Origin: Methylococcus mesophilus
GTDB lineage: Bacteria > Pseudomonadota > Gammaproteobacteria > Methylococcales > Methylococcaceae
Reading direction: 5' to 3'
Assembly (NCBI RefSeq): GCF_026247885.1
Contig: NZ_CP110921.1
Location: 3,169,501-3,233,500 of the forward strand
Length of the DNA stretch: 64,000 bases
The notes under the pieces are model-generated. The model was not told the origin of the DNA, made no database searches, and was given only the letters and a program-made list of their open reading frames with translations. Made by a program: the position numbers and the translations under genes. Shown one piece after another: positions 18,023 to 64,000 of the stretch (positions within the stretch are counted from its first letter, which is position 1; every line of letters begins with the position of its first letter).

Positions 18023-18139
18023 AAGAAGTATAGTGACAAAATCGGGAGGACGGTAGCATCGTGAGGCATGCGGAGGGGGTGACCTGCTCCCCGAGATTAG
18101 TCCGGTCGTGATGTAGAGTCTGCCTCGATAGGAGGCGGC

Positions 18140-37363: not shown

Positions 37364-37379
37364 TGACCTGCTCCCCGAT

Positions 37380-38485: not shown

Positions 38486-38564
38486 GCTGCCTCCTATCGA
38501 GGCAGACTCTACATCACGACCGGACTAATCTCGGGGAGCAGGTCAAGGCCACGACATCACAGGT

Positions 38565-44602: not shown

Positions 44603-44662
44603 TGACCTGCTCCCCGAGATTAGTCCGGTCGTGATGTAGAGTCTGCCTCGATAGGAGGCGGC

Positions 44663-44926
44663 ATGAAGAAGCGTTTCACCGAAGAACAGATCATTGGCAT
44701 CCTGAAGGAAGCCGAAGCCGGCCTAAAAGTAGCGGAGCTGTGCCGCAAGCACGGGCTCAGCGAGGCGACGTACTACAACTGGAAAGCGAAATACGGCGGC
44801 CTGACAGTGTCGGATGCGCAGCGGCTCAAGGCACTGGAGACCGAGAATGCCCGGCTCAAGCGCCTGCTGGCGGAGGCGATGCTGGACAATGCTGCGTTGA
44901 AAGAGGTTGTAGGCCGAAAGTGGTAA
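44663..44926 (+). CDS. IS3-family transposase OrfA (copy 3)
   Basis: 87 residues, same protein as the other copies, with the HTH and leucine-zipper region intact. Confidence 0.95.
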   Translation: MKKRFTEEQIIGILKEAEAGLKVAELCRKHGLSEATYYNWKAKYGGLTVSDAQRLKALETENARLKRLLAEAMLDNAALKEVVGRKW

Positions 44927-45768: not shown

Positions 45769-45842
45769 ATCGGGGAGCAGGTCACGGCCAGTCAAGAGAC
45801 CAAATGCGCACACCGCGCCAGCCGTGGCCTACAGACGGGCAC

Positions 45843-47192: not shown

Positions 47193-47296
47193 TGGGTTAA
47201 AGACTTCTTGTATAGCGACGCCGGATATTAAAGCGCTCTTTAATGGCTCGCGCCACCATGAAAGAAGGCTTTCATCGAACCCGCGCGCCATTTGCC

Positions 47297-47414
47297 AGAT
47301 CAGTGGAACACGGAACCGAACCCGCGTCCGCTTTCAGGAGCAGATAGTAACGCCTTGGCCTTGAGGGCATGGATTCGATGACTTGGCCCAGTCGCTGATC
47401 AACGGGGCGGATCA
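47297..47414. repeat. 118-bp repeat, copy B
   Basis: The partner of 16461-16578 in the same orientation. Here it fills the gap between the fic upstream region and the DUF3883 gene, whose stop lies inside the repeat. The two copies are 30.8 kb apart, at positions that bracket most of the accessory DNA. Confidence 0.75.
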
Positions 47415-50400
47415 GTTCGAGCTATCTCGCTCCACCCACGGTCGAACGTGAACGTCCGGGACTGGCCGACGGGGTTCTGAATTCTCAGCACGCGGGCTTG
47501 TGCGGGATCGGTCGCGTGTTCGACCACGTACAACCAATACGCATCGCCTTTTTCGCAGGCGCAGTCGAATTGTGTGTGCGATAGTCCCACGGGGCGATCT
47601 TCCCAACTGCCCGTCATCGACTTCACTTCCACCCATCGAATCTGCCTGCCACTGCTGTCGGCCTCGTATAGGTCAAAACCGGGGTTGCCATCCGGCGTGC
47701 GTTGCAGCGTGGGTTCGAGCGAAATGATCAGGGTTATGGCCTGATCCTCGATCTTCATCCGTGTTGCCTGATCGAGGCCATCAGGATCGGGCCCTTCGTC
47801 ATCAGGATGAGTGCCGAGGTAGGAAATGAACGGTCTTCCGCCAGCCGAGCCAGGAGTCCGTTTCTCCTGCCCCCCGCTGCTGGCACCGCCACTCTTACTG
47901 CCGCTACCGGTATGGCTACCAGAGCCACCGTGTACCCCGCCGTTGCCCTGACCGCCGCCGCGTGGCGCCCCTGTGCCTGCTCCACCCTGACCGCCGCGTC
48001 CTGCGCCACTCGTTGCGCCGTCGCTGTCCGGGTCGGGCGTTTTTGGCGGAATGTCCGGCATATCGTCGCCGTACAGGTCTTTCGCGTCGTCGTAGACATC
48101 CTCGCCAGGTCGATTGGTGTCGTCCGCCTCTTCTTCGGTCGGAATCTCGTCGGACGGCGCATCACCGGATGAAGCTTCGTCCTCTGGCGGTGCGTCAGTG
48201 ATCCCAAGCCGTGAGGTCAGATCTGCCACGCTGGTAATGCCGAGCTTTCGCAGCAAGTCGAGGGCGGCAGGATCGATACCAACCTCTTTGGCCAGTTGGT
48301 CGATGATTGGTGGCTTGAAGGCGATCTTGCTCAGCAGAAAGGGGTTGGGTTTCCAACCGAGAGTGTCGAACACCACGAGGCCAGGGGGCACCAGTTCGCC
48401 GTTGGCATCGGGCACCCAAGCTCCTTTGTTGAGATAGCGCAGGAAGGCAGCCGGGAAAGGCGGTGTCTTGCGTTCGCCGTAGTGCGACCAGGTGTAGGAG
48501 CCATCGAAGATACCGCGCCCGCGACGCTCTTCGAGATCGCCCAGACTCTCCCAGATCAGTCGGGCGCGCTCGACGCGTTGCTCCGGGGTGAGTTTTGGCA
48601 GAAGCGCAATGAGGTCGTCGAAACCTTGAAGCAGCCAGTCGACGATCCGGTCATTGATGCCCGAGGTTCCCTCGTGGCCCGTTTGCCGACGCAGTTCCAA
48701 CTTTTCATCCCGCGTTAGTGCGTGCGGAGCCTCGACCGGGCGCGGATACCGCAGCGCACCGCACGCTTCCAGCAGTTCGCGCATGCTCTCGCCGCGTAGG
48801 CAGTCGTACTTGTCATCGACGATGAAGACATCGGCCACTCCCGTGAAGAGCTGCTTCAAGCGGTCGGTGGCGACGTAAATGTCGCCGGGCTTGGCGACGT
48901 AGACTTTACCGTCGCCGGCATCGACCACCATCACGAAGGAAGTTTCGCGCAAGGCGGAACGCAGCTTTTCCCTTTGTGCTGTCGAGTCGGTGCTAAACGC
49001 CGAGCGGATGCGTTCGATGTCTGCGGCGTAGGCATCGCCGTCCACATCGACTTCTTCCTCTTGGTACTTCGGCAGGACGTTCCAGATCACGTCATCTACC
49101 GGGTCCGGTTCTGTGATGCCCAGCGAACTCAAGAAATCTCGTGCCTCGGGTGTTGCACACACCGCCCGACGCATCGTCGGGAAGCTGGTGGCGATGTCAC
49201 TGGGCAGGAACGCTCTGGCGTTACCGTTCTCTCGGACGACGACGTGAGTACCGTCTTCGAGGCGGATGAGAGGAACAATGTCGAGGTGGCGGCGCAAGGC
49301 TTTCTCCTGGCCGCTCAGGAATTCGTATAGCCGCAACACCCACTCGTCCGATTGCGCCTCAAGAAACGCCTTGGTCAGGCTCGGCACCAGCTTTGTCGGG
49401 GTGATCTCGTCGATGTCGAGTTCGCGCATCAGGTACTGGCGAATCTCGGGTGCCTTGTCCTGGGTGATGTCGCCTGATAGCCAAGCGGCGACCTTCGAAC
49501 CGAATAGCGCCGCAACCTGTTCCGGGCTGAACAGCTCGCGCAACTCTTGCGTGCGCGCCAGCTTGGCCTGATGGGCGGTGACATGCCTGCTGTCGAAGGT
49601 CGGAAGCAGCGCCTCTTCCTGAAATGCCTGCCGGACGGCATCAAATATTGGCGCAAACCGCGAACCCTTTGGGAACTTCTCGCGGTCAAGCGGCAAGCAG
49701 CGCAACGCTGCAACATCCAGCATTGCCTTGTCGCGCATCCAACGCATCGCCTCCACCAGCAGGCTGGAGGTCTCCTTGACCAGATGCTGGTTCCACGGCT
49801 CGCCGGGCGGAATGTTGTCGCGGCTTGGCGTGGTGCGGTACGGCCCCTGCACGAGAAAGCCAAGGTGGCTCTCAACCACTGTCGGGAAGAAAACTACCAG
49901 CGGCGACTTGGCCAGCGGCTGCACCACCCAGCGACCAGGGTCATCCTTTACCGCCACCAACGAGAAAGCAATTTCCACCCTTCCGACTTTCTGTCCCTCG
50001 GCAGAAAACACGTCGCGGTGGAACACCATCCAGTTCTGATCGACCTCCTGCCGATCATCCTCTGTGCCTATCACCGTGATGAGCTGGACATTGGGGCCAA
50101 GCGATTCGGGGATATTGCGCAAATAGAACCCGGACGCCCCGCCCTCGACGCTCCAGTTGATTTCGTCAATGTGACGCAGGAACAGCAGTGCGCCTGGGCC
50201 CAAGTGGCGGAACCCCGTCGTGATCTCCTGCGCTGCGCTCGCGTCTTCCGGTTTCAGGGGCAGGATGATCTGTGTCTCATCAGCATCGCGCGCCGACGGC
50301 TCCAACCGTTTGGGAAAGACGTAATCCTCAATGGCGAAGTCCTCGTCGCCAGAGTGGATCTCCGGAAGATCGGTGACCGTGTAGACGGACTTGAAGCCGA

Positions 50401-50719
50401 GGCCGAAGCGGCCAATGGAGGACTCGTTCTTGGTGCTCTCGGCGATGTCGCAGACGCTTCGGACGTCGGCCTCGTCGAACGGCTTGCCGAAATGCGAGAG
50501 CGTCAGGCGGGTCGGGTTCAGGGTGAACTCGACCTTTCGTGATTTGTGCCACTCGCCTCGCCGACCGAGCGCGTCCTCGGCGTTTTGCAGCAGTTCGAAG
50601 ATGAAGTGCGTGCGGTCGTCGTACAGACCAGCTGCAAGCCTCCCGGACTTCTGAGCACCTTTGGTGCCGTAGCTCTCCCGGTTCTCCTCGCAAATTGCCT
50701 CGTAGTTGGATGCCACCAC
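47399..50719 (-). CDS. Sacsin-like GHKL ATPase with C-terminal DUF3883 domain
   Basis: About 1106 residues. The N-terminus has an Hsp90/sacsin-type GHKL ATPase: the Asn-bearing box FIFELLQNAEDALG, then ESSIGRFGLGFKSVYTVTDL with the Gly-rich loops. A long middle region follows. Residues ~930-1010 form an acidic then Gly-rich disordered linker. The end matches DUF3883, a nuclease-like fold with GFDLYEADSSGRQIRWVEVK (E-x-K). Start GTG 50719 follows a GAGGGAG site; the open frame up to 51091 was rejected because it overlaps the divergent HTH and helicase genes. It is divergent from the helicase-methylase operon and is probably its partner, acting as a switch or effector. Confidence 0.8.
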   Translation of the reverse strand: MVASNYEAICEENRESYGTKGAQKSGRLAAGLYDDRTHFIFELLQNAEDALGRRGEWHKSRKVEFTLNPTRLTLSHFGKPFDEADVRSVCDIAESTKNESSIGRFGLGFKSVYTVTDLPEIHSGDEDFAIEDYVFPKRLEPSARDADETQIILPLKPEDASAAQEITTGFRHLGPGALLFLRHIDEINWSVEGGASGFYLRNIPESLGPNVQLITVIGTEDDRQEVDQNWMVFHRDVFSAEGQKVGRVEIAFSLVAVKDDPGRWVVQPLAKSPLVVFFPTVVESHLGFLVQGPYRTTPSRDNIPPGEPWNQHLVKETSSLLVEAMRWMRDKAMLDVAALRCLPLDREKFPKGSRFAPIFDAVRQAFQEEALLPTFDSRHVTAHQAKLARTQELRELFSPEQVAALFGSKVAAWLSGDITQDKAPEIRQYLMRELDIDEITPTKLVPSLTKAFLEAQSDEWVLRLYEFLSGQEKALRRHLDIVPLIRLEDGTHVVVRENGNARAFLPSDIATSFPTMRRAVCATPEARDFLSSLGITEPDPVDDVIWNVLPKYQEEEVDVDGDAYAADIERIRSAFSTDSTAQREKLRSALRETSFVMVVDAGDGKVYVAKPGDIYVATDRLKQLFTGVADVFIVDDKYDCLRGESMRELLEACGALRYPRPVEAPHALTRDEKLELRRQTGHEGTSGINDRIVDWLLQGFDDLIALLPKLTPEQRVERARLIWESLGDLEERRGRGIFDGSYTWSHYGERKTPPFPAAFLRYLNKGAWVPDANGELVPPGLVVFDTLGWKPNPFLLSKIAFKPPIIDQLAKEVGIDPAALDLLRKLGITSVADLTSRLGITDAPPEDEASSGDAPSDEIPTEEEADDTNRPGEDVYDDAKDLYGDDMPDIPPKTPDPDSDGATSGAGRGGQGGAGTGAPRGGGQGNGGVHGGSGSHTGSGSKSGGASSGGQEKRTPGSAGGRPFISYLGTHPDDEGPDPDGLDQATRMKIEDQAITLIISLEPTLQRTPDGNPGFDLYEADSSGRQIRWVEVKSMTGSWEDRPVGLSHTQFDCACEKGDAYWLYVVEHATDPAQARVLRIQNPVGQSRTFTFDRGWSEIARTDPPR

Positions 50720-50770
50720 TGCTCCCTCTCGGTCAGGCACCTGCTCGATGCCAAGTTTGCCCAAGTCTGC

Positions 50771-50785
50771 ATATTCTTGGAATAT
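50771..50785. promoter_or_regulatory. Palindrome in the divergent promoter of the defence cluster
   Basis: ATATTC and GAATAT are separated by TTG, in the 108-bp space between the DUF3883 gene and the HTH gene. A small HTH protein is encoded right beside it, so this may be its operator and could control both directions. Confidence 0.5.
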
Positions 50786-50827
50786 TATGACAAGATGTGG
50801 CAGTAAACCAAACACCGCGCAAATGAC

Positions 50828-51052
50828 ATGGGAAAGCCGATGAGCGACCAGCCGAACGAAATCCTCACCCTTGACGAGGTTGCCACCTACCTTAAGGCAG
50901 GCAAGCGTACGGTCTATCGCCTCGCGGCGAGCGGCAAGCTCCCGGCGTTCAAGCTGGGCGGGACGTGGCGCTTCCGACGCGGCGATCTGGACGAGTGGAT
51001 TGCAAGCCGTATCGGCAAGGCGACGGTTGATGACGACGAGGTGGCGGAATGA
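50828..51052 (+). CDS. Small HTH regulator, excisionase/MerR-like (HTH_17)
   Basis: A 74-residue protein (70 if started at ATG 50840). It is a single helix-turn-helix of the excisionase type: EILTLDEVATYLKAGKRTVY, then RLAASGKLPAFKLGGTWRFR and RGDLDEWIA. Its stop overlaps the helicase ATG (ATGA), so it is the first gene of the operon and likely regulates it. Confidence 0.88.
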   Translation: MGKPMSDQPNEILTLDEVATYLKAGKRTVYRLAASGKLPAFKLGGTWRFRRGDLDEWIASRIGKATVDDDEVAE

Positions 51053-53961
51053 CCTCCAGCGCCACCTCACTCCAGTCCAAGGCCAATCCACAGCAGCTTG
51101 AAGCCATTCTGGCCACCGATGGCCCGGTGCTCATCATCGCCGGGCCAGGATCGGGGAAAACCTTCACCCTTGTTGAGCGGATCGTCTATCTCATCACCCA
51201 CAAGGGTGTCGCACCCGAGTCTCTGCTGGTTGTCACCTTCACCGACAAGGCCGCGCGCGAGCTCACTACCCGCATCTCCAACCGGCTGGCCGCGCTGGGC
51301 ATCCAGTTCAACCTGAACGAGATGTACCTCGGCACATTTCACTCCATCTGCCTTCGTCTGCTGGAGGATTACCGCGAGTTCACACGGCTCAAGCGCAGCT
51401 TCACGCTGTTCGACCAGTTCGACCAGCAGTACTTCCTCTACCAGCACATTAAGGACTTCCGCGAAATACCAGACGCCGAGCTTGTCATGGGCGATGACCA
51501 GACGGGCCGCTGGGCGCAGTCGGAGAACCTGTTGAAGTGGCTCAACAAGGTCGGAGAGGAGGCGCTTGATGGCACCTCGCTGGCGGCGGCCCCTGATCCA
51601 GAAATCCGCGCCCTGGCCAATTGCTTTGCCAAGTACCAGGCTCTGTTGCACGAGCACAACTCGCTGGACTTTTCAGGCATCCAGTACGAGGCCCTGCAAC
51701 TGCTGGAAAAGCGCCCCGAGGTGCTGGGGCAACTGCGCGACAAGCTCACCCACCTGATGGTGGACGAGTACCAGGACACCAACACCATTCAGGAACGCAT
51801 CCTTCTGCTGCTGGCGGGCGAGCGCCGCAATCTGTGCGTGGTGGGCGACGACGATCAGGGCTTGTACCGCTTTCGCGGGGCCACCATCCGCAACATTCTG
51901 GAGTTCCCGGCACTGTTCGACGACGGCCAGTGCAAGCAAGTCAAGCTGACCGTCAACTACCGCTCGCACCCGGACATCATCCGCTTCTACAACGAGTGGA
52001 TGCGTGAACAGACCTGGGACGACGGCATGCGCGTGTTTCGCTTCGCCAAACAGATCGTTCCGCGCGAAGATGACTTTCCCGATTTGCCCACGGCGCTGCG
52101 GCTGACCGCCAGTGACGACAAGGACGACACCACCAACTGGCACGCTGAGGTTCTGGCCTTTCTCAACGGGTTGAAGTCCTCCGGCCAGCTTGCGGACTGG
52201 AATCAGGTCGCCTTCCTGTTTCGCTCGGTCAAGAACGACAAGGTGGTGGCGCTGGCGCGCTTCCTCGAAGCGCAGGGAGTGCCCGTGTTTTCTCCCCGCT
52301 CGAACATGTTCTTCGAGCGCGAGGAGATCCGCCTGATGATCGGCGCACTGATCTTCCTGTTCCCTCAGTTTCCCAAGGTGCGGGCGTGGGCCGAAGGCGT
52401 CACGCTGCCCATCTGGGACTACTATGACCACCAGTGCTTCAAGCCATTCATCGACGAGCTACGCAAGCCGGAAAACAAGCCGCTGCTGGACTGGGCACGC
52501 CCGCTTGCCAAGCGCCACGCCGTGCTGACGCAGAACACTGACTACGCCTTTTCCGGCCTGTTCTATCAGCTGCTGCAGTTCCCACTGTTTTCGCGCTTCC
52601 TCACTGATGAGGCCGTGCAAGGTGTGGACAAGGGGCGCGCCGCGCGCAACCTTGGTACCTTCTCCAAGCTGCTCACCAAGTTCGAGTACCTGCACTTTGT
52701 CAGCGTGCTCAACCCCGAGTGGCTGGAAAAGAATCTGCGTGACCTGTTCAATCAGTTCCTGCGCTTCCTGCAGGATGGCGGCATCGGCGAATACGAGGAC
52801 GAGGCCGAGTACGCACCCAAGGGCTGCGTCTCGTTCCTGACTATCCACCAGTCCAAGGGGCTGGAGTTTCCGGTGGTGGTGTGCGGTTCGCTGGAAGCGG
52901 TGCCGCGCAAGCAGTACGGAACACTTGATGTGCTTCTGGAAGATGGCGGCTACCTTTCCAAGGAACGCTTTGAGCCGCTCGACCACATCAAGAACTTCGA
53001 CTTCTGGCGGCTGTTCTACACCGCCTTCTCGCGTGCCCAGAACTTGCTGGTGCTGGCGGCGCAGGAAAAACAGGGGCGCGGCAAATCGCCGTCCAAATAC
53101 TTCGAGCGGCTGTTCTACGAGCTGCCCCGTTGGCGTGACGTTGATCTGTCGGCGCTGACCTTCGAGGCCATCAAGCAGATCAACCTCAAGCGCGAGTATT
53201 CGTTCACCTCGCACATCACGGTGTTCGAGAACTGCGCCGAGCAATACCGCTTCTTCAAGGAGCTGGAGTTCGCGCCCATCCGCGAAAGCCCGATGCTGTT
53301 CGGTACGCTGGTGCATCAGACCATCGAGGACATCCACAAGACCGTGCTGCGCGGCGAAGAAGCCAGCATTACCTTCGATGCCATCAAGGGCTGGTTCTCG
53401 GCCAACTACGCCATGCTCTCGAAGAAGGAGCGCGTCTACCTCGCACCCTCCTCGCAGCAGGCGGCGCTGCTGCACGTGCTGCGCTACTACGAGCGCGAGA
53501 ACGGCAACTGGGATCGCATCAAGGAGGCCGAGGTCGAGATCTCCCTCATCAAGGATCAGTACATCCTCAAGGGCAGCGTTGACTTGATCCGGGGCGAGCA
53601 CGACACGGTCGAGATCATCGACTTCAAGTCGGAGAAGAAGCCCGACATGGAGAAGGATCGGGATCGCCTGCGCCAGTACCAGCATCAGTTGGAGGTGTAC
53701 GCCCATCTGGTCGAGGAGCGCACCGGCCAGAAGGTGAGCCGGATGCACCTGTACTACACCGGAGAGGACGGCGGCAATCCTTACGTCTCCTTCACCAAAG
53801 ACGACCGCGCCATCGGCAAGACCATCGCACGCTTCGACGACATCGTCGCCCGCATCGAGCGACAGGACTACCAGATCGCCGCACGCCCGGCCAAGCTGTG
53901 CCAGAACTGCGATATGCGCGCTTATTGCGACAACAAGAATTGGGCTTTCAGGACTGCCTAG
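51049..53961 (+). CDS. UvrD-family helicase with C-terminal Cas4/AddB-like nuclease domain
   Basis: A 970-residue SF1A helicase. Visible motifs are Walker A IIAGPGSGKTFTLVERI, motif Ia TFTDKAARELTTRI, Walker B LMVDEYQDTNTIQ, motif III VVGDDDQGLYRFRG, and motif V/VI FLTIHQSKGLEFPVVV with YTAFSRAQNLLVLA. The last ~250 residues hold a PD-(D/E)xK nuclease: LKGSVDLIRG, then VEIIDFKSEKK. Its Cys set (VFENCAEQY, then CQNCDMRAYC near the end) is the four-Cys Fe-S pattern of AddB and Cas4 nucleases. It would unwind and degrade DNA. The next gene starts two bases after the stop, so it is one operon with the methylase. Confidence 0.92.
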   Translation: MTSSATSLQSKANPQQLEAILATDGPVLIIAGPGSGKTFTLVERIVYLITHKGVAPESLLVVTFTDKAARELTTRISNRLAALGIQFNLNEMYLGTFHSICLRLLEDYREFTRLKRSFTLFDQFDQQYFLYQHIKDFREIPDAELVMGDDQTGRWAQSENLLKWLNKVGEEALDGTSLAAAPDPEIRALANCFAKYQALLHEHNSLDFSGIQYEALQLLEKRPEVLGQLRDKLTHLMVDEYQDTNTIQERILLLLAGERRNLCVVGDDDQGLYRFRGATIRNILEFPALFDDGQCKQVKLTVNYRSHPDIIRFYNEWMREQTWDDGMRVFRFAKQIVPREDDFPDLPTALRLTASDDKDDTTNWHAEVLAFLNGLKSSGQLADWNQVAFLFRSVKNDKVVALARFLEAQGVPVFSPRSNMFFEREEIRLMIGALIFLFPQFPKVRAWAEGVTLPIWDYYDHQCFKPFIDELRKPENKPLLDWARPLAKRHAVLTQNTDYAFSGLFYQLLQFPLFSRFLTDEAVQGVDKGRAARNLGTFSKLLTKFEYLHFVSVLNPEWLEKNLRDLFNQFLRFLQDGGIGEYEDEAEYAPKGCVSFLTIHQSKGLEFPVVVCGSLEAVPRKQYGTLDVLLEDGGYLSKERFEPLDHIKNFDFWRLFYTAFSRAQNLLVLAAQEKQGRGKSPSKYFERLFYELPRWRDVDLSALTFEAIKQINLKREYSFTSHITVFENCAEQYRFFKELEFAPIRESPMLFGTLVHQTIEDIHKTVLRGEEASITFDAIKGWFSANYAMLSKKERVYLAPSSQQAALLHVLRYYERENGNWDRIKEAEVEISLIKDQYILKGSVDLIRGEHDTVEIIDFKSEKKPDMEKDRDRLRQYQHQLEVYAHLVEERTGQKVSRMHLYYTGEDGGNPYVSFTKDDRAIGKTIARFDDIVARIERQDYQIAARPAKLCQNCDMRAYCDNKNWAFRTA

Positions 53962-53963
53962 AC

Positions 53964-54422
53964 ATGAAGAACGAAATACCCGTGCAGGATGCCCTGCAGC
54001 TCACGACGCCGGCTATTAGCAGCACGGTGACAGTGGAGAAGTATGAATTCGAGCCCATCAAGGGCTATCCGATGCTGAACTGGCGCGGCAAGCGACCTTT
54101 TACGTCAACCCAGTACTACCCGGCGCAGCTGAAGGAAATCCACGGCGACGAAGTGGACGGATGGCGCAACAAGATCTTTTGGGGCGACAACCTTCAGGTG
54201 ATGAGCCATCTACTCAAGCAGTTCAGAGGAAGGATTGACCTGATCTACATCGACCCTCCATTCGACTCAAAGGCCGACTACAGAAAGTCAGTCACTCTCC
54301 GGGGAAACAAGGCGAAAGGAGATCAAGCGGCGTTCGAGGAGAAGCAGTATGGGGACATTTGGACGAACGACGAATACCTTCAATTCCTGTACGAGCGCTT
54401 ACTTCTGCTGAAAGAACTCCTC
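53964..54422 (+). pseudogene. DNA methyltransferase (type III Mod-like), 5' part, cut by IS copy 4
   Basis: The first 153 codons of an adenine-type beta-class DNA methylase: MLNWRGKRPFTSTQYYPAQL, then KIFWGDNLQVMSHLLKQF and the catalytic motif DLIYIDPPFDSKADY. IS copy 4 interrupts it after a KELL sequence. The frame resumes exactly at 55609 when the IS and one CCTC copy are removed. In the present form translation ends in the IS after one further codon, so the protein is inactive without IS excision. Confidence 0.88.
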
Positions 54423-54438
54423 TGACCTGCTCCCCGAT

Positions 54439-55287
54439 TTAGTCCGAAACGGACATAGAGTCTGCGGTTAAAAATGTGTCTGCAAACTGATCTGGCGTCA
54501 GGTAAGCCAACGAACTGTGGGGGCGTTGCTCATTGTATTCCCGACGCCACTCCTCAATGACTTGGCGAGCATGGCGCATCGAGACGAACCAATGCTCGTT
54601 CAGGCATTCATCCCGGAATTTGCCGTTGAAGCTTTCGATGTAGGCGTTCTGCTGTGGCTTACCTGGCTGGATGAAGCTCAAGCACAGTCCTTGGCTATCG
54701 GCCCATTCATCCAAAGCCTTGCCGGCAAACTCGGGGCCGTTGTCGACGGTGACTGATTTGGGCAATCCGCGGATCTCTGCCAGCCGTTGCAGCACACCGA
54801 CTACACGTCTGCCAGGCAGCGAAGTATCGACTTCGATGGCCAAGCACTGCTTCGTGAAGTCATCGACGATATTCAGGCACCGCAGCCGCCGACCATCGGC
54901 CAAACCGTCCGAAACATAGTCCATAGACCAACTCTCGTTAGGCGCCGATGGCGCGACCTTGATTTGGCGCTCCACGCCGGCAATGCGCTTCCGCTTTCGT
55001 TTGCGGACCATCAGGCCGGCCTCGTGATACACGCGATAGGTGCGCTTTCGGTTGATTTCCCAACCCTCTCGGCAAAGTAGCACGTGCAGCCGGCGATACC
55101 CATAGCGCCGCTTCTGCGCTGCCAATTCGCACAGTCGTTCCTTGAGCTCCTGGTCTACTGGCCGCTTAGCTTCGTAGCGATACAGCGACCGAGAAATACC
55201 GATCAGCCCACAAGCCCGCGTGACGCCCATCTGGTGCTTTGTCATCAGATGGGAGACCGCCACCCTCTTGGCTTGTGGGCTTACCAC
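54439..55287 (-). CDS. IS3-family transposase OrfB (copy 4)
   Basis: 282 residues, DDE triad intact (Tyr kept before the catalytic Glu), in the -1 frame relative to orfA. Ala to Val substitutions in QAKRVAV and KRPVDQE. Confidence 0.95.
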   Translation of the reverse strand: MVSPQAKRVAVSHLMTKHQMGVTRACGLIGISRSLYRYEAKRPVDQELKERLCELAAQKRRYGYRRLHVLLCREGWEINRKRTYRVYHEAGLMVRKRKRKRIAGVERQIKVAPSAPNESWSMDYVSDGLADGRRLRCLNIVDDFTKQCLAIEVDTSLPGRRVVGVLQRLAEIRGLPKSVTVDNGPEFAGKALDEWADSQGLCLSFIQPGKPQQNAYIESFNGKFRDECLNEHWFVSMRHARQVIEEWRREYNEQRPHSSLAYLTPDQFADTFLTADSMSVSD

Positions 55288-55544
55288 TTTCGGCCTACAA
55301 CCTCTTTCAACGCAGCATTGTCCAGCATCGCCTCCGCCAGCAGGCGCTTGAGCCGGGCATTCTCGGTCTCCAGTGCCTTGAGCCGCTGCGCATCCGACAC
55401 TGTCAGGCCGCCGTATTTCGCTTTCCAGTTGTAGTACGTCGCCTCGCTGAGCCCGTGCTTGCGGCACAGCTCCGCTACTTTTAGGCCGGCTTCGGCTTCC
55501 TTCAGGATGCCAATGATCTGTTCTTCGGTGAAACGCTTCTTCAT
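55281..55544 (-). CDS. IS3-family transposase OrfA (copy 4)
   Basis: 87 residues, same protein as in the other copies. Confidence 0.95.
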   Translation of the reverse strand: MKKRFTEEQIIGILKEAEAGLKVAELCRKHGLSEATYYNWKAKYGGLTVSDAQRLKALETENARLKRLLAEAMLDNAALKEVVGRKW

Positions 55545-55604
55545 GCTGCCTCCTATCGAGGCAGACTCTACATCACGACCGGACTAATCTCGGGGAGCAG
55601 GTCA

Positions 55605-57081
55605 CCTCAGCCCAAGCGGCGCGATCTTTCTTCACTGCGACTGGCACAAGAGCCACCACATTCGATGCATCCTGGATGAAGTCTTCGGGCAAGGCAACTT
55701 CTGCAACGAGATCGCACGGATTAAATGCAATCCGAAAAATTCGGACTTGAATGCCTTCGGGAATATTCACGACACAGTCTTCTTCTATCGGAAGGGCGGT
55801 GAGGGTTACGCCTGGACCAAGCTCCGTGAGGAGAAGGATTCGGAGGACCTGGCACGGATTTACGAGAAGGTCGACAGTGCTGGCCGCAGGTACACGACTG
55901 TAGCGCTACACGCTCCTGGCGAGCGTGCCGGCGAGACAGGACAGCCGTGGCGCGGAATGCCGCCACCGAGAGGACGTCATTGGGCATACGTCCACGCACA
56001 GCTCGACGAGTTCGATACCTTAGGAAAGATCGAATGGTCATCGTCGGGCAATCCAAGGCTAATCCGGTACGCGGACGAAGATGATGGAAACCGCGTTCAG
56101 GACGTGTGGACAATGAAAGATCCACAGTACGTTGACTATCCGACCGAGAAGGCAGAGGAACTGCTGGAGAGAATCATCTTGGCTTGTTCGAGGCCAGGAG
56201 AGCTGGTACTTGACTGTTTCATGGGGTCAGGAACAACGCAGGCTGCCGCCATGAGGCTCGGTCGGCGCTTTATTGGGGCAGATATTAATCTTGGCGCAAT
56301 TCAGACGACGACCAAACGGTTGATCGAACTTGGAAGTCAGCTACGGCAACAGTCGCTCGATTCGAAGGAAACGCATTTCACCGGATTCGAGGTTCACAAC
56401 GTCAATCATTACGATATCTTCCGCAACCCCGTTCAGGCCAAAGACCTGTTGATCGAGGCGTTGGAGGTACAGAAGCTGGAGTTCAGCACTGTGTTCGACG
56501 GCGAGAGGGACGGGCGCATGGTCAAGATCATGCCCGTCAACCGGATCGCCACACGCGCCGACCTGAACGAATTGATCCACAACTTTGACCAGAAGGCGTG
56601 GCAGCACCGTCACAACGGGCATCCGACCCGCCCGGTCGAGAAGATCACCCTCGTCTGCATGGGCCACGAGCCAGACTTGGCAGCGCAACTGGAACTGGCC
56701 GCCAAGCCGTTCAAGATCGACGTGGAAGTAGTGGACATCCTGCGCGACAAGACCGATCTGGAGTTCAAGCGCGACTCGCAGGCCAAGGTGGTGGTAAAGG
56801 GTAGCGAGCTGGTCATTGAGAGGTTCTACCCGATGAATCTGCTGCAAAAGCTCTCGCTGCAGAAGGAATCGGTCGAGGACTGGAAGGAACTGGTCGAATC
56901 GGTCCTTATCGACTGGAACTACGACGGCGCGGTGCTGCAACCGGCGGTGGTGGACATCCCAGTCAAGAGCGAGCAGGTCAAGGGCGCGTACAAGGTGCCA
57001 GACGACGCAGGCACGATCCGCGTGAAGATCACCGACTTGCTCTCGGAGTCGTGGGAAGGGAGCATCAGCAATGGCGGCTAA
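55605..57081 (+). pseudogene. DNA methyltransferase (type III Mod-like), 3' part
   Basis: Continues the gene cut at 54422. It has SPSGAIFLHCDWHKSHHI and a HDTVFFYRK segment, typical of type III Mod proteins, then the SAM-binding motif LVLDCFMGSGTTQAAAMRLG followed by FIGADINLGAIQTTTKRL. The order (DPPF before the SAM motif) is the beta class. A further ~240 residues C-terminal to the methylase form a unique domain (possibly target recognition or Res contact). The total would be about 645 residues. Its stop overlaps the Res-like ATG by 11 bases. An ATG at 55747 could start a fragment lacking the catalytic motif. Confidence 0.88.
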
Positions 57082-59788
57082 GCGTGCAACCGCGAAGGCC
57101 GGCGGCAAGGCAGCCAGCGCGTCCGGCGCGTCGCTGGATTTCGCCTTCTTCCGCTTTCTGTGGCAGTTCTACAAGGACAACCGAGGGGCGATCCGGCAGA
57201 ACTACAAGGAGCTTACCCGCAAGTTCCTCGACTTCAATAACCCGCAGAAGAACCCCAAGGCCTTCCTACGCCAGCCGCAGTTCGAGGCGCTGGAAACCTA
57301 CGTCCTCCTCAAAGAGTTCCTTGGCAATGCCAAGGTCGAGGAGGTATTCAGGGCTTGGTACGAGCGCAGCGGCAAGTTCGAGGGCCGCAAGTTCGGCTCC
57401 TTCCTCGGCACCGCCGGCCAGGAGATGTTCTCGTTTGGGGAGTCCGACGAGCTGGAACTGGGCTCGTACAAGCTACTGTTCGAGAAGATGCGCAAGAACT
57501 CTCGCGCCTACCCGAACTACATCTTCGCCCTGACGATGGGCACGGGCAAGACCATCCTGATGGCCACCTGCATCTTCTACGAGTTCCTGCTGGGCAACAA
57601 GTTCGAGAAGGACGCGCGCTACTGCCACAACGCGCTGGTGTTCGCCCCGGACAAAACTGTGCTGCAATCGTTGAAGGAGATCGAGGCGTTCGACCTGACC
57701 CGCGTCGTGCCGCCGGAGTACGTCAACTTCCTGACCACGCACCTGCGCTTCCACTACCTCGAAGAAGCAGGCACCTCGCTGGACACGCTGGATCGCTCGC
57801 GCTTCAACATCATTGTCTCCAACACGCAGAAGATCATCCTGAAGCGCCAGCACAAGGAAAAAACCTCCGTCGACAAGCTGTTCGGCGCGACCGGCGAAAT
57901 CCTGGCCGCCAACGGCGTCTATGCCGATGCCGCCGATCTCTACAACTTCGACCAGCCCGAGGAAGAAGGCGAGCTCACCACCAACCAGCGCTTCGAGAAA
58001 CTTCGCCGCCTGGAGCAGCTCGGCATCTACGTGGACGAGGCCCACCACGCCTTCGGCAAGGCGCTGGCCAAGGACATGGGCGTCGGGGCCAAAGAAACCG
58101 ACACCAGCCTGCGCACCACCATCGACATCCTTGCCGCCAGCCTCAATGCGGCAGGCACGCGTGTGGTCGCCTGCTACAACTACACCGGCACGCCCTATGT
58201 GGGCCGCGAGGTGCTGCCTGAGGTGGTTTATGCCTATGGCCTGAAGGAGGCCATCGACAAGGGGTTCCTCAAGAAGGTGACGCTGCACGGCTATGCCAAC
58301 ACCCGCACCGACGAGTTTGTCGATATCGCCATCGAGAACTTCTTGAAGGAATCCGGCGAAGTGCGCCCAGAAGGGCTGCTGCCCAAGCTGGCGTTCTTCG
58401 CCGCCACCATCGACGAGCTGACCGGAGAACTGCGACCTGCGGTGGAACGCGCGCTGCTTAAGCACGGCATCCCGACCTCGCGCATCCTGGTCAACGTGGG
58501 CGACGACAAGCTCACCACCAACGACGACATCCGCGAGTTCAACCGACTGGATACCGAAGGCTCGGACAAGCAGTTCATCCTGTTGGTCAACAAGGGCCGC
58601 GAAGGCTGGAACTGCCGCTCGCTGTTCGGCGTAGGGCTATTCCGCGAGCCCAAATCCAAGGTGTTCGTCCTACAGGCCACGATGCGCTGCCTGCGCGCCA
58701 TCGGGGAGGCCCAGCACACCGGCCACGTCTTCCTTTCGGACGACAACCTCAACACGCTGAACGACGAGCTGCAGCAGAACTTCCGCATCAGCGCCGACGA
58801 GCTGCAAAAGACCGGGAAAGACAAGGAGCCGGTGCAAATCCGCGTGGTGGAGCCGCCGGTCAAGATCAAGCTGGTGCGTGTGCGCAAGCAGTACCAGATA
58901 CGCGAGAAAGCGCTTGTGCCCGGCCAGACGCTGGGCCTCGACCGCGCCGACAAGGAAAGCTGGAACACGTTGGTCGAGAAGTACCGGCTGATTGAAACTC
59001 AGCAGGACGGCTTGACCGCCGCCGATGCGGCGCGCGCCTCTGGCAGTCGCACCTTTGACCTGACCTCGCGCCGGGAAAAGCGAGCCTTCTCACGGCTATC
59101 GCTGGTGGCCGAGGTGTCCCGCTATTTGAACCGAAGCCCGCTGGAGATCGAGGAGCTGCTCGACGCGACGAAGGAAGGTGCCGACGAACTGGTGGCCATC
59201 ACCAACGAGTTCAATGAGCTTCTCTACGACGAGATCATCCCGCGCTTGTTCCGCCAGCTCTACGACCTTGACGAGTCGCAGCAAACCGAAGAGCACGAGG
59301 TCGATCTGATCAAGATGCCCCCGAACGGCTACTACGAGGTATCGGCGGCGAAGGACAAGATCGTCCGGATGAACGACGCGCAGATCAAGGACGAAGAGCG
59401 CGCCAAGAGCTTCCACCTCGACACCTACTGCTTTGACTCCGGCTCGGAGAACTGGCTGTTCTGGGATCTGCTGCGCGAGCAACGGGTGAAGAAGATCTAC
59501 TTCACCGGGATGCTGACCCACGGCCAGTCCGATTTCTTCATCCAGTACATCGACCCGGATTCTCGCACCGTGCGCAGCTACTACCCGGACTTCATCTTCC
59601 AGCGGGAAGAACCGGACGGCAGCCTGAAGTACGTGATCGTCGAGGTCAAGAACGATTCGCAGATTGAGGATGCGGTAGTGCAGGCCAAGAAGGACTTCGC
59701 CCAGCAGATCGCGGTGGCCAGTGGCATGGAGTACCGGATCATTAGGTCGAGTGATGCCGACAAGCGAGCCTATCGCGTGCTCTTGTAA
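57071..59788 (+). CDS. Res-like DEAH helicase with C-terminal PD-(D/E)xK nuclease
   Basis: A 905-residue SF2 protein like type III restriction Res subunits. Walker A is FALTMGTGKTILMATCIFY near residue 160, Walker B IYVDEAHHAFGK near 320. Motif III/VI regions include CYNYTGTPYVGRE and LLVNKGREGWNCRSLFGVGL, then QATMRCLRAIGEAQHTG. The C-terminus carries the nuclease motifs SYYPDFIFQREEPDGSLKYV and IVEVKNDSQ. It starts inside the methylase stop, showing translational coupling. With the methylase broken, an active Res would lack its modification partner, which makes its current state of interest. Confidence 0.92.
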   Translation: MAAKRATAKAGGKAASASGASLDFAFFRFLWQFYKDNRGAIRQNYKELTRKFLDFNNPQKNPKAFLRQPQFEALETYVLLKEFLGNAKVEEVFRAWYERSGKFEGRKFGSFLGTAGQEMFSFGESDELELGSYKLLFEKMRKNSRAYPNYIFALTMGTGKTILMATCIFYEFLLGNKFEKDARYCHNALVFAPDKTVLQSLKEIEAFDLTRVVPPEYVNFLTTHLRFHYLEEAGTSLDTLDRSRFNIIVSNTQKIILKRQHKEKTSVDKLFGATGEILAANGVYADAADLYNFDQPEEEGELTTNQRFEKLRRLEQLGIYVDEAHHAFGKALAKDMGVGAKETDTSLRTTIDILAASLNAAGTRVVACYNYTGTPYVGREVLPEVVYAYGLKEAIDKGFLKKVTLHGYANTRTDEFVDIAIENFLKESGEVRPEGLLPKLAFFAATIDELTGELRPAVERALLKHGIPTSRILVNVGDDKLTTNDDIREFNRLDTEGSDKQFILLVNKGREGWNCRSLFGVGLFREPKSKVFVLQATMRCLRAIGEAQHTGHVFLSDDNLNTLNDELQQNFRISADELQKTGKDKEPVQIRVVEPPVKIKLVRVRKQYQIREKALVPGQTLGLDRADKESWNTLVEKYRLIETQQDGLTAADAARASGSRTFDLTSRREKRAFSRLSLVAEVSRYLNRSPLEIEELLDATKEGADELVAITNEFNELLYDEIIPRLFRQLYDLDESQQTEEHEVDLIKMPPNGYYEVSAAKDKIVRMNDAQIKDEERAKSFHLDTYCFDSGSENWLFWDLLREQRVKKIYFTGMLTHGQSDFFIQYIDPDSRTVRSYYPDFIFQREEPDGSLKYVIVEVKNDSQIEDAVVQAKKDFAQQIAVASGMEYRIIRSSDADKRAYRVLL

Positions 59789-59834
59789 GTCGGACAACGG
59801 CAGATCGGCCAAATCTATGGGATGGGCGACCAAT

Positions 59835-62800
59835 ATGGCAAGAAAGAGAATCTCCAAAAGCACACTCTCGATGTTCCTTCGCACGAAGTGCGACCGCGAG
59901 CTTTATCTGTCGCTACACGAGGACTCGGAGCTGGACGCTAATGGCATGCCGGTTCCTCTACAGGCACGGCCTGGCATTGGAGTTCTGCAAACCGCAGGCC
60001 GCGATTTTGAGGATGAGCGGAATGACCAATTGATCCAGTCTTTCGGCAACCTGGTCATGTATCAGCCCGACAAAGGAGGGGCGAACAAGCCGGTCAAGGC
60101 ACCGCTTGCCTCATTGCTCGGCAAGGTCACGGCTTTGCCTTCGATCATCTTGCAAGGCAAGTTTGAGCCATCGGCGTTCCAAAATGCCGTCATGGCGAAC
60201 ATTGGTCTCCAACCAGCCCAAGTTGCCCAGGTTCCAAGGATCGCAGGACTTATCCCTGACATCATTGTGGTGCGCCAGGCGACAGTCGACGACGAAGAGG
60301 TCGGCGCAGATGGATGCCGGAGACCAATCGATCCAACGACCGAAACTCGTCGTGCGCTGAGCATTATTGATGTCAAGCACACCAGCGAAGCCAATCCCAG
60401 CTACTCTGCTGAGGTTGCGCTTTACGCGATTTTTCTCGCCAATTGGATCGTCGACCAAGGCCTACAGAACAGCTACTTTGTGACCATCCGCAGCTACTTG
60501 TGGACCCGATTCAAGCAAGGCCAATCTGCGCTAGGCGCTTTGATGTCGGGCTCCTCTCCGGCAACGCCCGACCAATATCTCGACGTGCTGATCGCCGACA
60601 GCGAGGATGCCAACCTTCGTTTCTACCTACCTACCGTGCTGCATTTCTTCAGGGAAGACTTGCTCCGGGTCATCACCATTGGTGACGCTTCAGCCAATGG
60701 CTGGGAGAATCTCGAATGGCACGTCGATGGTCGCTGTAGCGCTTGTGACTGGCTCGGGCACGAGAAGTGGGCAAATTCGAAGGACAAGGCGCGAATCGCG
60801 GCACAGCCAGCCCATTACTGCTATCCGGCGGCGAAGCTGACTGGGCACTTGAGTCAGATTGCTGGCATGACTCGGGGGGCAAGGAAAACGCTCCAGATCA
60901 ATGCCATTCAGAACACAGCAGGCGCAGCGAGTGCTCCTTCGGCGCATCCTGCGTTTCAGCAGCACAGCCATCTCAAGAAGGAACGAAGCCGTATCCCCGT
61001 TCGTGCCCAAGCTCTGATCTCATCGACGACCAGTGTGGACAGTTCAGCGGTGCTGGCAAGCCTGGCTCCCTGGCCGCAATTGCATGTCGCCATAACAGTT
61101 AACTTCGATCCCAGCGCTGGACTGCTAACAGGCTTATCGATATTTGGCAGGGCAACAGCTTACGTAAGCGGACAGACTCCGCGACAGTTCGCCACCAAGT
61201 GTTTTGTCGTCGACCAGAAAAGCCTCAGCGATGAGTGGGTCGCCCTTGAAGGACTGCTATCGACCCTGTCCGACATGGTTGACCAGTCTGAAGCGTTTGT
61301 CCGCGCAGCGGGCAAGACACCTCTCACCGCGCAAATCGCGTTCTGGGAAAAGCGCCAGTTCGAGGAGCTGTGTGCGGCAATGGGGCGGCACCTACCCAAG
61401 GTGTTGAGTCTTACCAACCGCAAGACCAAGGCTCTGGCATGGCTATTCCCTGCCGATGAACTCATTGAGAAGCCTGACGGTGCGGTAAGCCCGTGTGTCG
61501 TCTTCGTAGACGAGATTGTCCAGCGCGTCGTCTTCGCACCGACACCTCACGTCATCACGCTATTTGACACCGCCGAAGCCTACTATTCCGGATCTGGGCC
61601 GATTCGGCAGGGAGACGCGTTCTATCGAGAGTTTCTGACCAACGGTATTCCACGAGAGCGCATCTACGAGATCTGGAGCAATGTGACCACGATTAAGCGT
61701 GGCTCGGTTACAGTCCCTCGAAACACTGTTATTCAGGAATTTGGTAATGCGCTGGAAAAGCAGTGTCGCGCGTTGAGCAGTGTCGTTGAGAAGTTGCGCA
61801 CGGACTTCAGAGGGCAACTCAAGGCAAACGCTCCCAAGCTAACCCTCTCGATTCCGCAGGGTGCCCGGGATGTTGCTTTCGACAGCAAGCTTTGGATCTG
61901 GTGGGAGGAGCTGCAGTACCACACCAGAAAGCTAGAGTCGCACCAGCGCTTGGCGCTCGATGCCGAAGCATTGGAAGCCAGCTATGAGGCAGTTCGACTC
62001 ACCAACGGCCAACCGACCGGAATTCCGACCGAATACAATTTCGACGTGTTGGCGGGGTCAACAGAAGCGAAGCTTGATGATAACGAAGGGTACCTTGCTC
62101 TGGGAAAAGAAGCTCATCCCGGACTTCCTCTCCTGCGCGCAAAGGACATTGTCGCCGCCGGTTCGCCTCCATATTCGGGATCGGATCAGACGATCACTAC
62201 GCCATTGTGGTCGTCGCTGTCGGTGACCCTCGTGTCGTTCGATCGCAGCACGCGTAAGGCCGTATTGAATCTGTCTAACTGGCGTGAAGCCGCATTTTTC
62301 CCGTACCTGCGGGACAATTCGACCATCGACCTCCTGAACGATATCTTCATCACTAAAGGTCAAGGATCATTCAAATGGTACGAGACGGCCAAGAATATTC
62401 TGACTACTGTCGGCAACCCTTCGCTCGCGGTCGCTGATAGCAATGCGGCCACTGCGATGGGGGCGAGGCCGCCGCGACCCGGCACAGACCCAGTTACCCC
62501 TCTTGCCCGAGTGCTCTGGGAGGCCGACATTCTTCACGCAACGTCCGTCGTGGCTGCAACGCCAGCTGCATCGGTTGCTGCCTACGCCAAGGCCAAGCAC
62601 AACCTGAACAGTAGTCAGACCGATGCTGTCGCCCACGCGACGGAAAAGCAGCTGACGATCATCTGGGGTCCTCCAGGCACTGGAAAGACCCAGACCCTTG
62701 CCGGATGCATTCATGGTCTTGTCCATGATGCCGCGCCGAACCGGCAGCCATTGAAGCTACTGGTCGCCGGGCCAACGTACAAAGCTGTTGAAGAGATTAT

Positions 62801-64000
62801 TGGTCGCGTTGTTGATGCGCTGGATAACGACGCAACATGCCCTGCCGAGGTATATGTTGGATATTCCTCGTCGCAAGCTCCAAAGGCATTTCCAGCGGGT
62901 AGCTCGCATCTACGCGTCGAGTCATTCAAGCTCGACCGGACCAATCAGGAAACACAGGACTGTCTTGCCAGTCTGGCAAAGGCCGATGCTGTCACGATTG
63001 TCGGCACTGCGATGATGCAGGCCTACAAGCTCGCGGAGTGGACGTGTGGTAGCAGTGTCGGGCCGATTTTCGACGTTGTCATCATCGACGAAAGCTCTCA
63101 GGTTCAGGTAACCGCAGCAATCTCAGCATTGGCCACTCTGAAAGAGGACGCACGATTGATCATTGCCGGCGACCACCTTCAGATGCCGCCAATCATGGCG
63201 CTTGAGCCACCCAACGGTGCCGAATACTTGGTGGGCAGCATCCAGAAATACCTGCTCGACCGTCCGTTTGGCAGCCAAATCGTTTCATGTCCGCTCGAAG
63301 AGAATTACCGTTCGGCGGAGGACATAGTGGCCTATGCTCGTACGATCGGCTACCGAGCGACGTTGAAGGCGTCAAACGCCGCGACGGCACTTCATCTCTT
63401 GGCGGCAGTACCTACTTCCGCATCCGGCTTTCCAGGCGGCATGCCTTGGTCGACTTTGTGGCCGCAAATTCTGGACCCCAAGAAGAAGGTGCTGACGTTG
63501 CTCCATGACGATGACCTGTCGTCGCAAAGCAATTCCTTTGAAGCAAAGATCGTCGCCGCCTTGACCTGGTGCCTTAGGCAGACAGTGAGCGCGGAACTTG
63601 ATGGGCGAGGTGCCGTGACGCATGCGGCGCCAACGCCCGATCAGTTCTGGGGGCAGTGTATTGGAATCGTGACGCCACATCGCGCCCAACGCGCGTTGGT
63701 GGTTCGCGAACTGAGGTCGATATTTCCGTCTGATCCGCCGGATTTGATCGACTCGGCGGTTGATACCGTGGAAAAGTTCCAGGGTGGTCAGCGGCACACA
63801 ATCATCGTGACTTTTGGTGTCGGGGATGCGGACGTGATCATGGGGGAGGAAGCGTTCCTCATGCAGTTAGAGAGGACAAACGTGGCCATCTCTCGCGCGA
63901 TGGCTAAGTGCCTGGTGATTATGCCGATGACGCTTGCCGGGCACGTCCCTCACGACAAGAAGGCTCTTGAGACAGCTCATGCGATCAAAGATTATGTCGA
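59835..64000 (+). CDS. Dna2-like protein: Cas4/RecB-type nuclease fused to SF1 helicase (3' end cut)
   Basis: At least 1388 residues, open at the right edge. The N-terminus has the first Cys of a Cas4-type Fe-S cluster (FLRTKCDRELYLSLHED), then nuclease motifs GLIPDIIVVRQ and LSIIDVKHTSE. The remaining Cys residues lie in DGRCSACDWLG and AHYCYPAAKL. After a ~500-residue middle region comes an SF1B (UPF1/Dna2-like) helicase: NLNSSQTDAVAHA, Walker A IIWGPPGTGKTQTLAG, Walker B DVVIIDESSQVQV, LEENYRSAEDI, FQGGQRHTIIVTFG, and motif VI RTNVAISRAMAKCLV. ATG 59835 lies 46 bp after the Res stop. It likely processes DNA ends made by the system. Confidence 0.9.
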   Translation, partial: MARKRISKSTLSMFLRTKCDRELYLSLHEDSELDANGMPVPLQARPGIGVLQTAGRDFEDERNDQLIQSFGNLVMYQPDKGGANKPVKAPLASLLGKVTALPSIILQGKFEPSAFQNAVMANIGLQPAQVAQVPRIAGLIPDIIVVRQATVDDEEVGADGCRRPIDPTTETRRALSIIDVKHTSEANPSYSAEVALYAIFLANWIVDQGLQNSYFVTIRSYLWTRFKQGQSALGALMSGSSPATPDQYLDVLIADSEDANLRFYLPTVLHFFREDLLRVITIGDASANGWENLEWHVDGRCSACDWLGHEKWANSKDKARIAAQPAHYCYPAAKLTGHLSQIAGMTRGARKTLQINAIQNTAGAASAPSAHPAFQQHSHLKKERSRIPVRAQALISSTTSVDSSAVLASLAPWPQLHVAITVNFDPSAGLLTGLSIFGRATAYVSGQTPRQFATKCFVVDQKSLSDEWVALEGLLSTLSDMVDQSEAFVRAAGKTPLTAQIAFWEKRQFEELCAAMGRHLPKVLSLTNRKTKALAWLFPADELIEKPDGAVSPCVVFVDEIVQRVVFAPTPHVITLFDTAEAYYSGSGPIRQGDAFYREFLTNGIPRERIYEIWSNVTTIKRGSVTVPRNTVIQEFGNALEKQCRALSSVVEKLRTDFRGQLKANAPKLTLSIPQGARDVAFDSKLWIWWEELQYHTRKLESHQRLALDAEALEASYEAVRLTNGQPTGIPTEYNFDVLAGSTEAKLDDNEGYLALGKEAHPGLPLLRAKDIVAAGSPPYSGSDQTITTPLWSSLSVTLVSFDRSTRKAVLNLSNWREAAFFPYLRDNSTIDLLNDIFITKGQGSFKWYETAKNILTTVGNPSLAVADSNAATAMGARPPRPGTDPVTPLARVLWEADILHATSVVAATPAASVAAYAKAKHNLNSSQTDAVAHATEKQLTIIWGPPGTGKTQTLAGCIHGLVHDAAPNRQPLKLLVAGPTYKAVEEIIGRVVDALDNDATCPAEVYVGYSSSQAPKAFPAGSSHLRVESFKLDRTNQETQDCLASLAKADAVTIVGTAMMQAYKLAEWTCGSSVGPIFDVVIIDESSQVQVTAAISALATLKEDARLIIAGDHLQMPPIMALEPPNGAEYLVGSIQKYLLDRPFGSQIVSCPLEENYRSAEDIVAYARTIGYRATLKASNAATALHLLAAVPTSASGFPGGMPWSTLWPQILDPKKKVLTLLHDDDLSSQSNSFEAKIVAALTWCLRQTVSAELDGRGAVTHAAPTPDQFWGQCIGIVTPHRAQRALVVRELRSIFPSDPPDLIDSAVDTVEKFQGGQRHTIIVTFGVGDADVIMGEEAFLMQLERTNVAISRAMAKCLVIMPMTLAGHVPHDKKALETAHAIKDYV

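Follow-up and report, generated by a model that had tools for sequence, protein, structure and literature searches.

The 64,000-nucleotide (nt) stretch of Methylococcus mesophilus analysed here (hereafter the window; bases 3169501-3233500 of the single 4.34-Mb contig NZ_CP110921.1) carries a three-gene core that we call System A: a UvrD-Cas4-like helicase-nuclease, a type III-like DNA methyltransferase (Mod) and a Res-like helicase with a TnsA-like nuclease (Res). This trio recurs beyond chance co-occurrence in plasmids and in genomes of many phyla. Taken with its proposed mechanism as a whole, System A is probably a variant form of type III restriction-modification that includes a third core subunit. 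In one lineage the core is joined by a sacsin-like gene, a recurrent and dispensable accessory, and the Dna2-like gene that follows the core in the window belongs to a separate restriction-type module.

The occurrence of the core was assayed with Res. A tblastn search of plasmids matched 25 records, ten of which were inspected. A Res alignment was scanned against 84,980 species genomes and gave at least 248 related places, of which the best 80 were retrieved. These 80 genome loci and nine plasmid loci make up a set of 89 (cited by L numbers where needed); a locus entered a given count only if enough of its upstream or downstream sequence was available. In the nine plasmid loci (from Nitrosomonas, two, and from Blastomonas, Phaeobacter, Yoonia, Vibrio, Spirosoma, Tunicatimonas and Enterococcus) UvrD, Mod and Res are encoded in that order on one strand, with two open reading frames (ORFs) between UvrD and Mod in the Spirosoma locus. 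Mod was found in 81 of the 82 loci with enough upstream sequence, the sole exception being a Mod fused to Res, and UvrD in 70 of 74. Of 66 measured loci, 64 have Mod immediately 5' of Res and 57 have UvrD immediately 5' of Mod. The core spans Proteobacteria, Bacillota, Cyanobacteriota, Chloroflexota, Bacteroidota, Poribacteria and others. Intact cores occur, for example, in the cultured environmental hosts Pseudomonas sp. PIC25 (L021) and Paraburkholderia sp. DHOC27 (L031). Within the window's class Res was matched in 5 of 274 sampled genomes, its own included; the other four gave 64% and 74% identity, a 48% fragment and a distant 28% match. A megablast search of E. coli genomes with the E. 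hormaechei version gave no match.

Some stretches call for separate mention. In L019:8054-12718, from a Dechloromonas metagenome-assembled genome, Mod and Res form one open frame of 1,554 amino acids (aa); this may be a natural fusion or a sequencing indel, as it is a single assembled genome and one indel could suffice. A gut phage genome (L112, PV036426.1) carries a complete UvrD-Mod-Res core near one end. The tenth plasmid inspected, from Ideonella (L018), with a Res of 28% identity and a different gene set, was dropped before the counts; it holds another Res-Mod set with AAA ATPase, DUF4276 and Mrr-like genes. An archaeal plasmid stretch with an Hsp90-like gene (L111) was likewise left uncounted: its helicase and methylase match the core profiles weakly and Res was not found in it.

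ORFs were called mechanically. Those of the window were listed and their proteins scanned with Pfam, PADLOC-DB 2023 and NCBIfam profiles, with the following result:

47399-50716, minus strand: GHKL/sacsin-like ATPase with a C-terminal NOV_C (DUF3883) PD-(D/E)xK-like nuclease domain, TmtA (Tiamat)-like (Pfam, PADLOC, conservation)
50717-50827, no strand: intergenic region from which the sacsin-like gene and the helix-turn-helix (HTH) gene diverge, presumed shared regulatory region (gene coordinates)
50828-51052, plus strand: HTH_17/excisionase-type regulator (Pfam HTH_17, 70.1 bits)
51049-53961, plus strand: core gene 1, a UvrD-like helicase that carries a C-terminal Cas4-like/RecB-family nuclease and four conserved cysteines (Pfam)
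53964-54422, plus strand: interrupted core gene 2, the 5' piece, bearing the DPPF motif, of the type III-like DNA methyltransferase Mod (PADLOC MTase_III 9.6e-22, alignment with intact homologues)
54423-55604, minus strand: IS3-family insertion sequence (IS) inside mod (4-bp target duplication)
55605-57081, plus strand: 3' piece of Mod with the FMGSGTT motif and the conserved C-terminal part (N6_N4_Mtase 84.9 bits, alignment)
57071-59788, plus strand: Res-like superfamily 2 (SF2) helicase (DEAH) with a C-terminal TnsA-like PD-(D/E)xK endonuclease, core gene 3 (Pfam, fold search)
59835-64082, plus strand (the window ends at 64000): Dna2-like protein with an N-terminal RecB-type nuclease bearing a Cys cluster and a C-terminal superfamily 1 helicase (AAA_11/AAA_12, alignment of 7)
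64095-65246 in window numbering (L002:4095-5246), minus strand, beyond the window: second DNA methyltransferase, 383 aa, convergent to the Dna2-like gene

The ORF listing and the profiles thus place the GHKL-DUF3883, HTH, UvrD, methylase, Res-like and Dna2-like genes where a preliminary description of this DNA had put them. The tight coupling it had claimed for the operon is also measurable: HTH and uvrD overlap by 4 nt, uvrD and mod are 2 nt apart, and mod and res overlap by 11 nt. The sacsin-like ORF as listed has its GTG start at 51091 and runs across the HTH gene; judged by where the conservation of homologues begins, the start is probably near 50716, at a GTG. A scan of the divergent region 50717-50827 gave no sigma-70 consensus and no terminator.

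The domains of the core proteins are well supported. UvrD matches UvrD-helicase (248.1 bits), PDDEXK_1 (PF12705, 80 bits) and Cas_Cas4 (26.3 bits), all over cut-off; in ten UvrD-Cas4 sequences Walker A, DEYQD, D845, D858, K860 and Q880 are invariant, and so are the cysteines C729, C951, C954 and C960. Res matches ResIII (25.2 bits) and Tn7_TnsA-like_N (37.7 bits), both over cut-off, and an alignment of 45 sequences keeps Walker A, DEAHH and the nuclease residues D840, E858 and K860 invariant. We take these residues, and those of the sacsin-like family given below, to be active-site positions. In the nine intact plasmid Mods DPPY/F precedes FxGxG with a putative target recognition region between them, and the nearest Protein Data Bank (PDB) chains of the Mod profile are type III Mods, 6k0w_B and EcoP15I 4zcf_A.

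The two ends of Mod are conserved, and its middle (residues ~200-345 of L021) varies. Identities were compared over 2,211 pairs from 67 loci, the pairs not being independent observations. The rank correlation (rho) of Res identity is 0.95 with UvrD, 0.84 with the C part of Mod and 0.54 with its N part; with the central region of Mod it is -0.04. In 142 of the 176 pairs with Res more than 85% identical, this central region is less than 35% identical. It exceeds 60% identity in 39 of the 2,211 pairs, some of them between distant systems; for Oxalobacter (L030) and Desulfamplus (L094), Res is 55% and the Mod middle 80% identical. Between L010 and L045 the Mod middle is 89% identical. The simplest reading of these comparisons is that the Mod middle would be the recognition region, exchanged between systems, and the sole sequence-reading part of the three proteins; Res and UvrD would therefore take their specificity from Mod. 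Variation of the middle independently of Res is what is expected if Mod alone sets specificity.

Type III enzymes methylate one strand and cleave in an ATP-dependent reaction that requires two inverted unmethylated sites. System A shares with them, and with EcoP15I in its nearest solved structures (4zcf_A, and 6k0w_B), the layout of Mod: the order of motifs is found in the nine intact plasmid Mods and the variable middle over the 67 loci, the mod of the window being itself interrupted. It also shares the make-up of Res, an SF2 motor followed by a C-terminal PD-(D/E)xK nuclease, as given by domains over cut-off, invariant residues and a fold match to 4zcf_C. It differs by its third core gene, UvrD-Cas4, by the TnsA-like kind of nuclease, and by a Res profile that matches no PDB chain at E <= 0.1. 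Thus the cluster is, as first described, of restriction type and distinct from the standard two-gene type III, UvrD being a third core gene in 70 of 74 loci. PADLOC REase_III gave a weak match for a Bacillota Res homologue only, and none for the Res of the window. The predicted Res model (mean predicted local distance difference test, pLDDT, 74.5) ranked RadD first, then 4zcf_C from the EcoP15I entry, which we take to be its Res chain, then a chromatin remodeller, with LlaBIII and HsdR among the top six. The predicted fold points to, but does not prove, a restriction-kind SF2 motor, and it does not single out a type III Res.

We propose that Mod would methylate DNA, probably at adenine, within a short site that its central target-recognition region selects, and would carry the specificity for the whole complex. 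On incoming unmarked DNA the SF2 motor of Mod-bound Res would be engaged and would move or slide, and the TnsA-like nuclease would cut. UvrD-Cas4 would unwind and degrade from the cut, filling the role played by RecBCD or AddAB after ordinary restriction. The observed basis of this scheme is gene content, gene order, co-inheritance, conserved catalytic residues and the independent variation of the recognition region; from it we infer defence activity, complex formation, the order of action, the methylation mark, phage resistance and the role of the sacsin-like protein.

Several points weigh against this scheme. The retrieved loci favour relatives of the query, and shares computed from them should not be read as population frequencies. 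Four of the 74 loci lack UvrD (L037, where its frame looks disrupted, L046, L077 and L080). The ends of Mod are strongly conserved, and slow evolution there gives part of the contrast with the middle. The match of 4zcf_C to the Res model is modest (TM-scores 0.30/0.41), RadD ranks higher, and chromatin-remodeller and other SF2 motors score about equally well; the lack of a PDB match to the Res sequence profile adds to this. The mainly open-access literature searched yielded no wet-lab evidence of restriction, methylation or complex formation.

In the window mod is not the whole operon gene that had been described: an IS3-family element of 1,182 bp with a 4-bp target duplication (54423-55604, minus strand) splits it into 53964-54422 and 55605-57081. 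Four near-identical copies of the element lie in the window (18080-19261, 37364-38545, 44603-45784 and 54423-55604); the three compared show 2-3 mismatches per ~1,170 bases, and the genome holds 25 matches, 23 of them full-length. This multiplication is a recent burst, of which one copy broke mod, and because the mismatches are few and the matches many the insertion into mod is itself probably recent. Mod is most likely inactive in the window because the DPPF motif is left in the upstream piece and FMGSGTT in the downstream piece. System A would then probably be silent there, if Res relies on Mod for recognition as in type III.

The sacsin-like protein matches Pfam SACS (55.1 bits) and NOV_C (35.9 bits). 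In 20 sequences of its family E46/N50/D53, G107/G110/G112 and D1020/E1035/K1037 are invariant, and its predicted model (pLDDT 67) resembles Hsp90/TRAP1 and sacsin SR1. The gene is present in 23 of the 89 retrieved loci, i.e. in 24 carriers with the window. Its family is the commonest non-core neighbour (25 loci including the window, one with a distant homologue), the next being tyrosine integrases (10 loci). It is divergent in 23 of the 24 carriers and lies at most 600 nt from uvrD in 21 of 24, window included. By a rapid Res tree of 90 rows, made without bootstrap, its carriers are 24 of the 37 scored loci of one clade of 46 rows and none of the 25 outside. Its presence changes at least nine times on this tree; it has therefore been lost or gained repeatedly. 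The HTH gene was found in 14 of 20 sacsin carriers (the count covers 20 of the 24), in one of 38 non-carriers and in none of 11 unscored loci. The GHKL-DUF3883 and HTH genes, first described as partners of the helicase-methylase-Res operon, are thus recurrent and positionally fixed partners within one clade. Since the sacsin-like gene is missing from 38 of the 62 scored core loci, including all nine plasmid loci, it is not essential to the core: it is a recurrent, dispensable accessory of the System A of one lineage.

In that proteobacterial clade System A is joined by two genes, one for an HTH regulator and a divergent one for a sacsin/Hsp90-like ATPase-DUF3883 nuclease, most likely a regulated second effector acting when restriction is blocked. 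Tiamat, a single-gene system, offers another explanation: the sacsin-like gene could be an independent Tiamat-like system that merely shares the island and the promoter region. The protein has the architecture of TmtA, a GHKL/Hsp90-like N-terminus and a C-terminal DUF3883 region. Nine TmtA models of PADLOC match it (best 9.4e-70) and touch both of its ends, the best-matching stretch being N-terminal for some models and 942-1228 for one, likewise in two homologues. The 38 core loci that lack the gene point the same way, as do relatives of 26-41% identity in five genomes of the class that gave no Res match. We regard this explanation as possible but doubtful. Here, in contrast to Tiamat, the gene is tied to a restriction operon and an HTH gene, and its position is fixed in 21 of 24 loci. 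Its close relatives (49-93% identity among 23) were seen only beside the core, and none stood elsewhere in the limited plasmid and class samples; the genome scan, seeded by Res, could not show others. A plasmid search with the protein gave 13 records, all of them at 45% identity or less and short of 80% coverage, and the search of 274 genomes of the class no other match above 41%, the five others being those at 26-41%. Sacsin-like identity also tracks Res identity (Mantel rho 0.79 over 23 sequences, reached by 0 of 5000 permutations; 23 of the 24 carriers were used, the L054 fragment being left out). This correlation is nevertheless compatible with functional coupling and with simple linkage alike.

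A second effector or a guard remains our first choice over an independent Tiamat-like system. PrrC, which guards EcoprrI, is the model for the guard. The sacsin clade might then have two-tier immunity, in which a Mod-specified restriction machine of three proteins is watched over by a dedicated Hsp90-like ATPase-DUF3883 protein that would fire when a phage anti-restriction protein blocks Mod-Res-UvrD. We put this version forward tentatively and think it unlikely.

For UvrD-Cas4, the alternative is a general repair helper recruited beside Mod-Res, with no role in restriction itself. We judge this improbable: its presence in 70 of 74 loci across phyla and its rank correlation of 0.95 with Res make it look like a dedicated subunit.

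The methyltransferase that faces the Dna2-like gene has an FxG-type motif first, then TSPPYY. An intact convergent pair of this kind (System B) lies downstream of the core in L029, L037, L041 and L054, i.e. in 4 of 67, counting only retrieved loci whose downstream sequence exceeds 4.5 kb; L056 has two partial Dna2-like ORFs only. The pair also stands on stretches fetched from two plasmids, one of Bradyrhizobium and one of Rhizobium (L109, L110), which hold neither the core nor the sacsin-like gene, and there its two genes overlap by 4 nt. Because the pair stands without the core on two plasmids and other modules fill the slot elsewhere, it is a separate restriction-type module, not part of System A.

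Taking the Dna2-like gene as a sixth member of the unit is not supported, since it belongs with its convergent methyltransferase; in related loci, the supposed single unit of six genes breaks down into the core of three, a sacsin/HTH module that may or may not be present, and a Dna2-like pair that can stand apart. Looking for the six families together in other genomes, as had been suggested, accordingly gave a split answer, the core and the clade-specific sacsin/HTH genes recurring and the Dna2-like pair appearing in 4 of 67 loci. That the six genes together make up a single, integrated multi-helicase system of defence is very improbable and already largely refuted: the four loci with the intact pair downstream of Res are all sacsin-bearing, but the pair is absent from the other 63 of 67, stands alone on the two plasmid stretches, and gives way in the downstream slot to a DUF488 pair in four loci and a DUF4357 protein in five.

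The DUF488 module consists of a gene of ~280-290 aa and a minus-strand DUF488 gene, just 3' of Res in L019, L020, L023 and L065; the first of these genes gave no Pfam match in the L020 copy scanned. The DUF4357 protein lies downstream of Res in L042, L043, L062, L063 and L098, and its L043 copy has a sub-threshold GIY-YIG match. Beyond the window, after the second methyltransferase, L002:5768-19500 holds genes that look to us like phage tail genes, including a 1007-aa ORF that is presumably tape-measure-like. On the other side of the cluster, between an IS copy and the sacsin-like gene, lies an ORF (46047-47291, minus strand) with a HPFLDGNGRIGR motif, from which we presume it to be Fic-like.

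BREX is marked by PglZ/BrxC, DISARM by DrmA/DrmB, Druantia by DruE and Wadjet by JetABCD. None of these proteins is among the PADLOC matches listed (25 of 67 for UvrD and 25 of 62 for Mod proteins), and among the matches listed no PADLOC-DB 2023 or NCBIfam profile names the set. With MADS the likeness is confined to the HTH protein, which scores 80.6 against the NCBIfam MAD1 cut-off of 80, i.e. 0.6 bits over; no other MAD model is among the listed matches, mad2-mad8 finding no counterpart there, and MADS was rejected on this ground.

The core itself is not new. Hudaiberdiev et al. 2017 reported that UvrD-Cas4 fusions mostly adjoin type III Mod and Res, considered them defence components, and noted HTH or WYL regulators in several of the loci (PMC5704561). 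The loci described here have the same make-up: next to Mod and Res stands a UvrD whose fusion partner is a pfam12705 Cas4-like nuclease. Section 8 of that paper mentions no sacsin/GHKL-DUF3883 gene, no variation of the Mod recognition region and no Dna2-like pair (PMC5704561). The possibility that the set was already catalogued is thus half borne out: the trio was described there in silico, but it received, in the text available, neither a name nor an experiment, and the sacsin-like gene does not figure in that section (PMC5704561). No named or tested version of the trio was found in the mainly open-access literature. ARMADA type II, which protects against phages, is likewise a multi-helicase and methyltransferase set and includes a GajB-like UvrD helicase; as its available description goes, it differs by its own BrxHII-like and YprA-like helicases and its PglX-like methyltransferase, none of which is among the listed matches of the window (PMC12458937). 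As far as our searches show, three things are new: the clade-specific sacsin/HTH module, the data bearing on specificity, and the recognition that the Dna2-like pair is separate.

Although the trio occurs in many phyla, on plasmids and in a phage, none of the listed PADLOC-DB and NCBIfam matches names it. The independent middle of Mod leads to a direct prediction, that Mod alone would set the specificity of two other enzymes. Setting the Dna2-like module apart corrects the six-gene reading of the window. The sacsin-like partner links an ATPase fold of the Hsp90/sacsin type to a bacterial restriction operon and, if the guard reading were true, it would represent a chaperone-type GHKL switch that, in a prokaryote, is coupled to a restriction enzyme.

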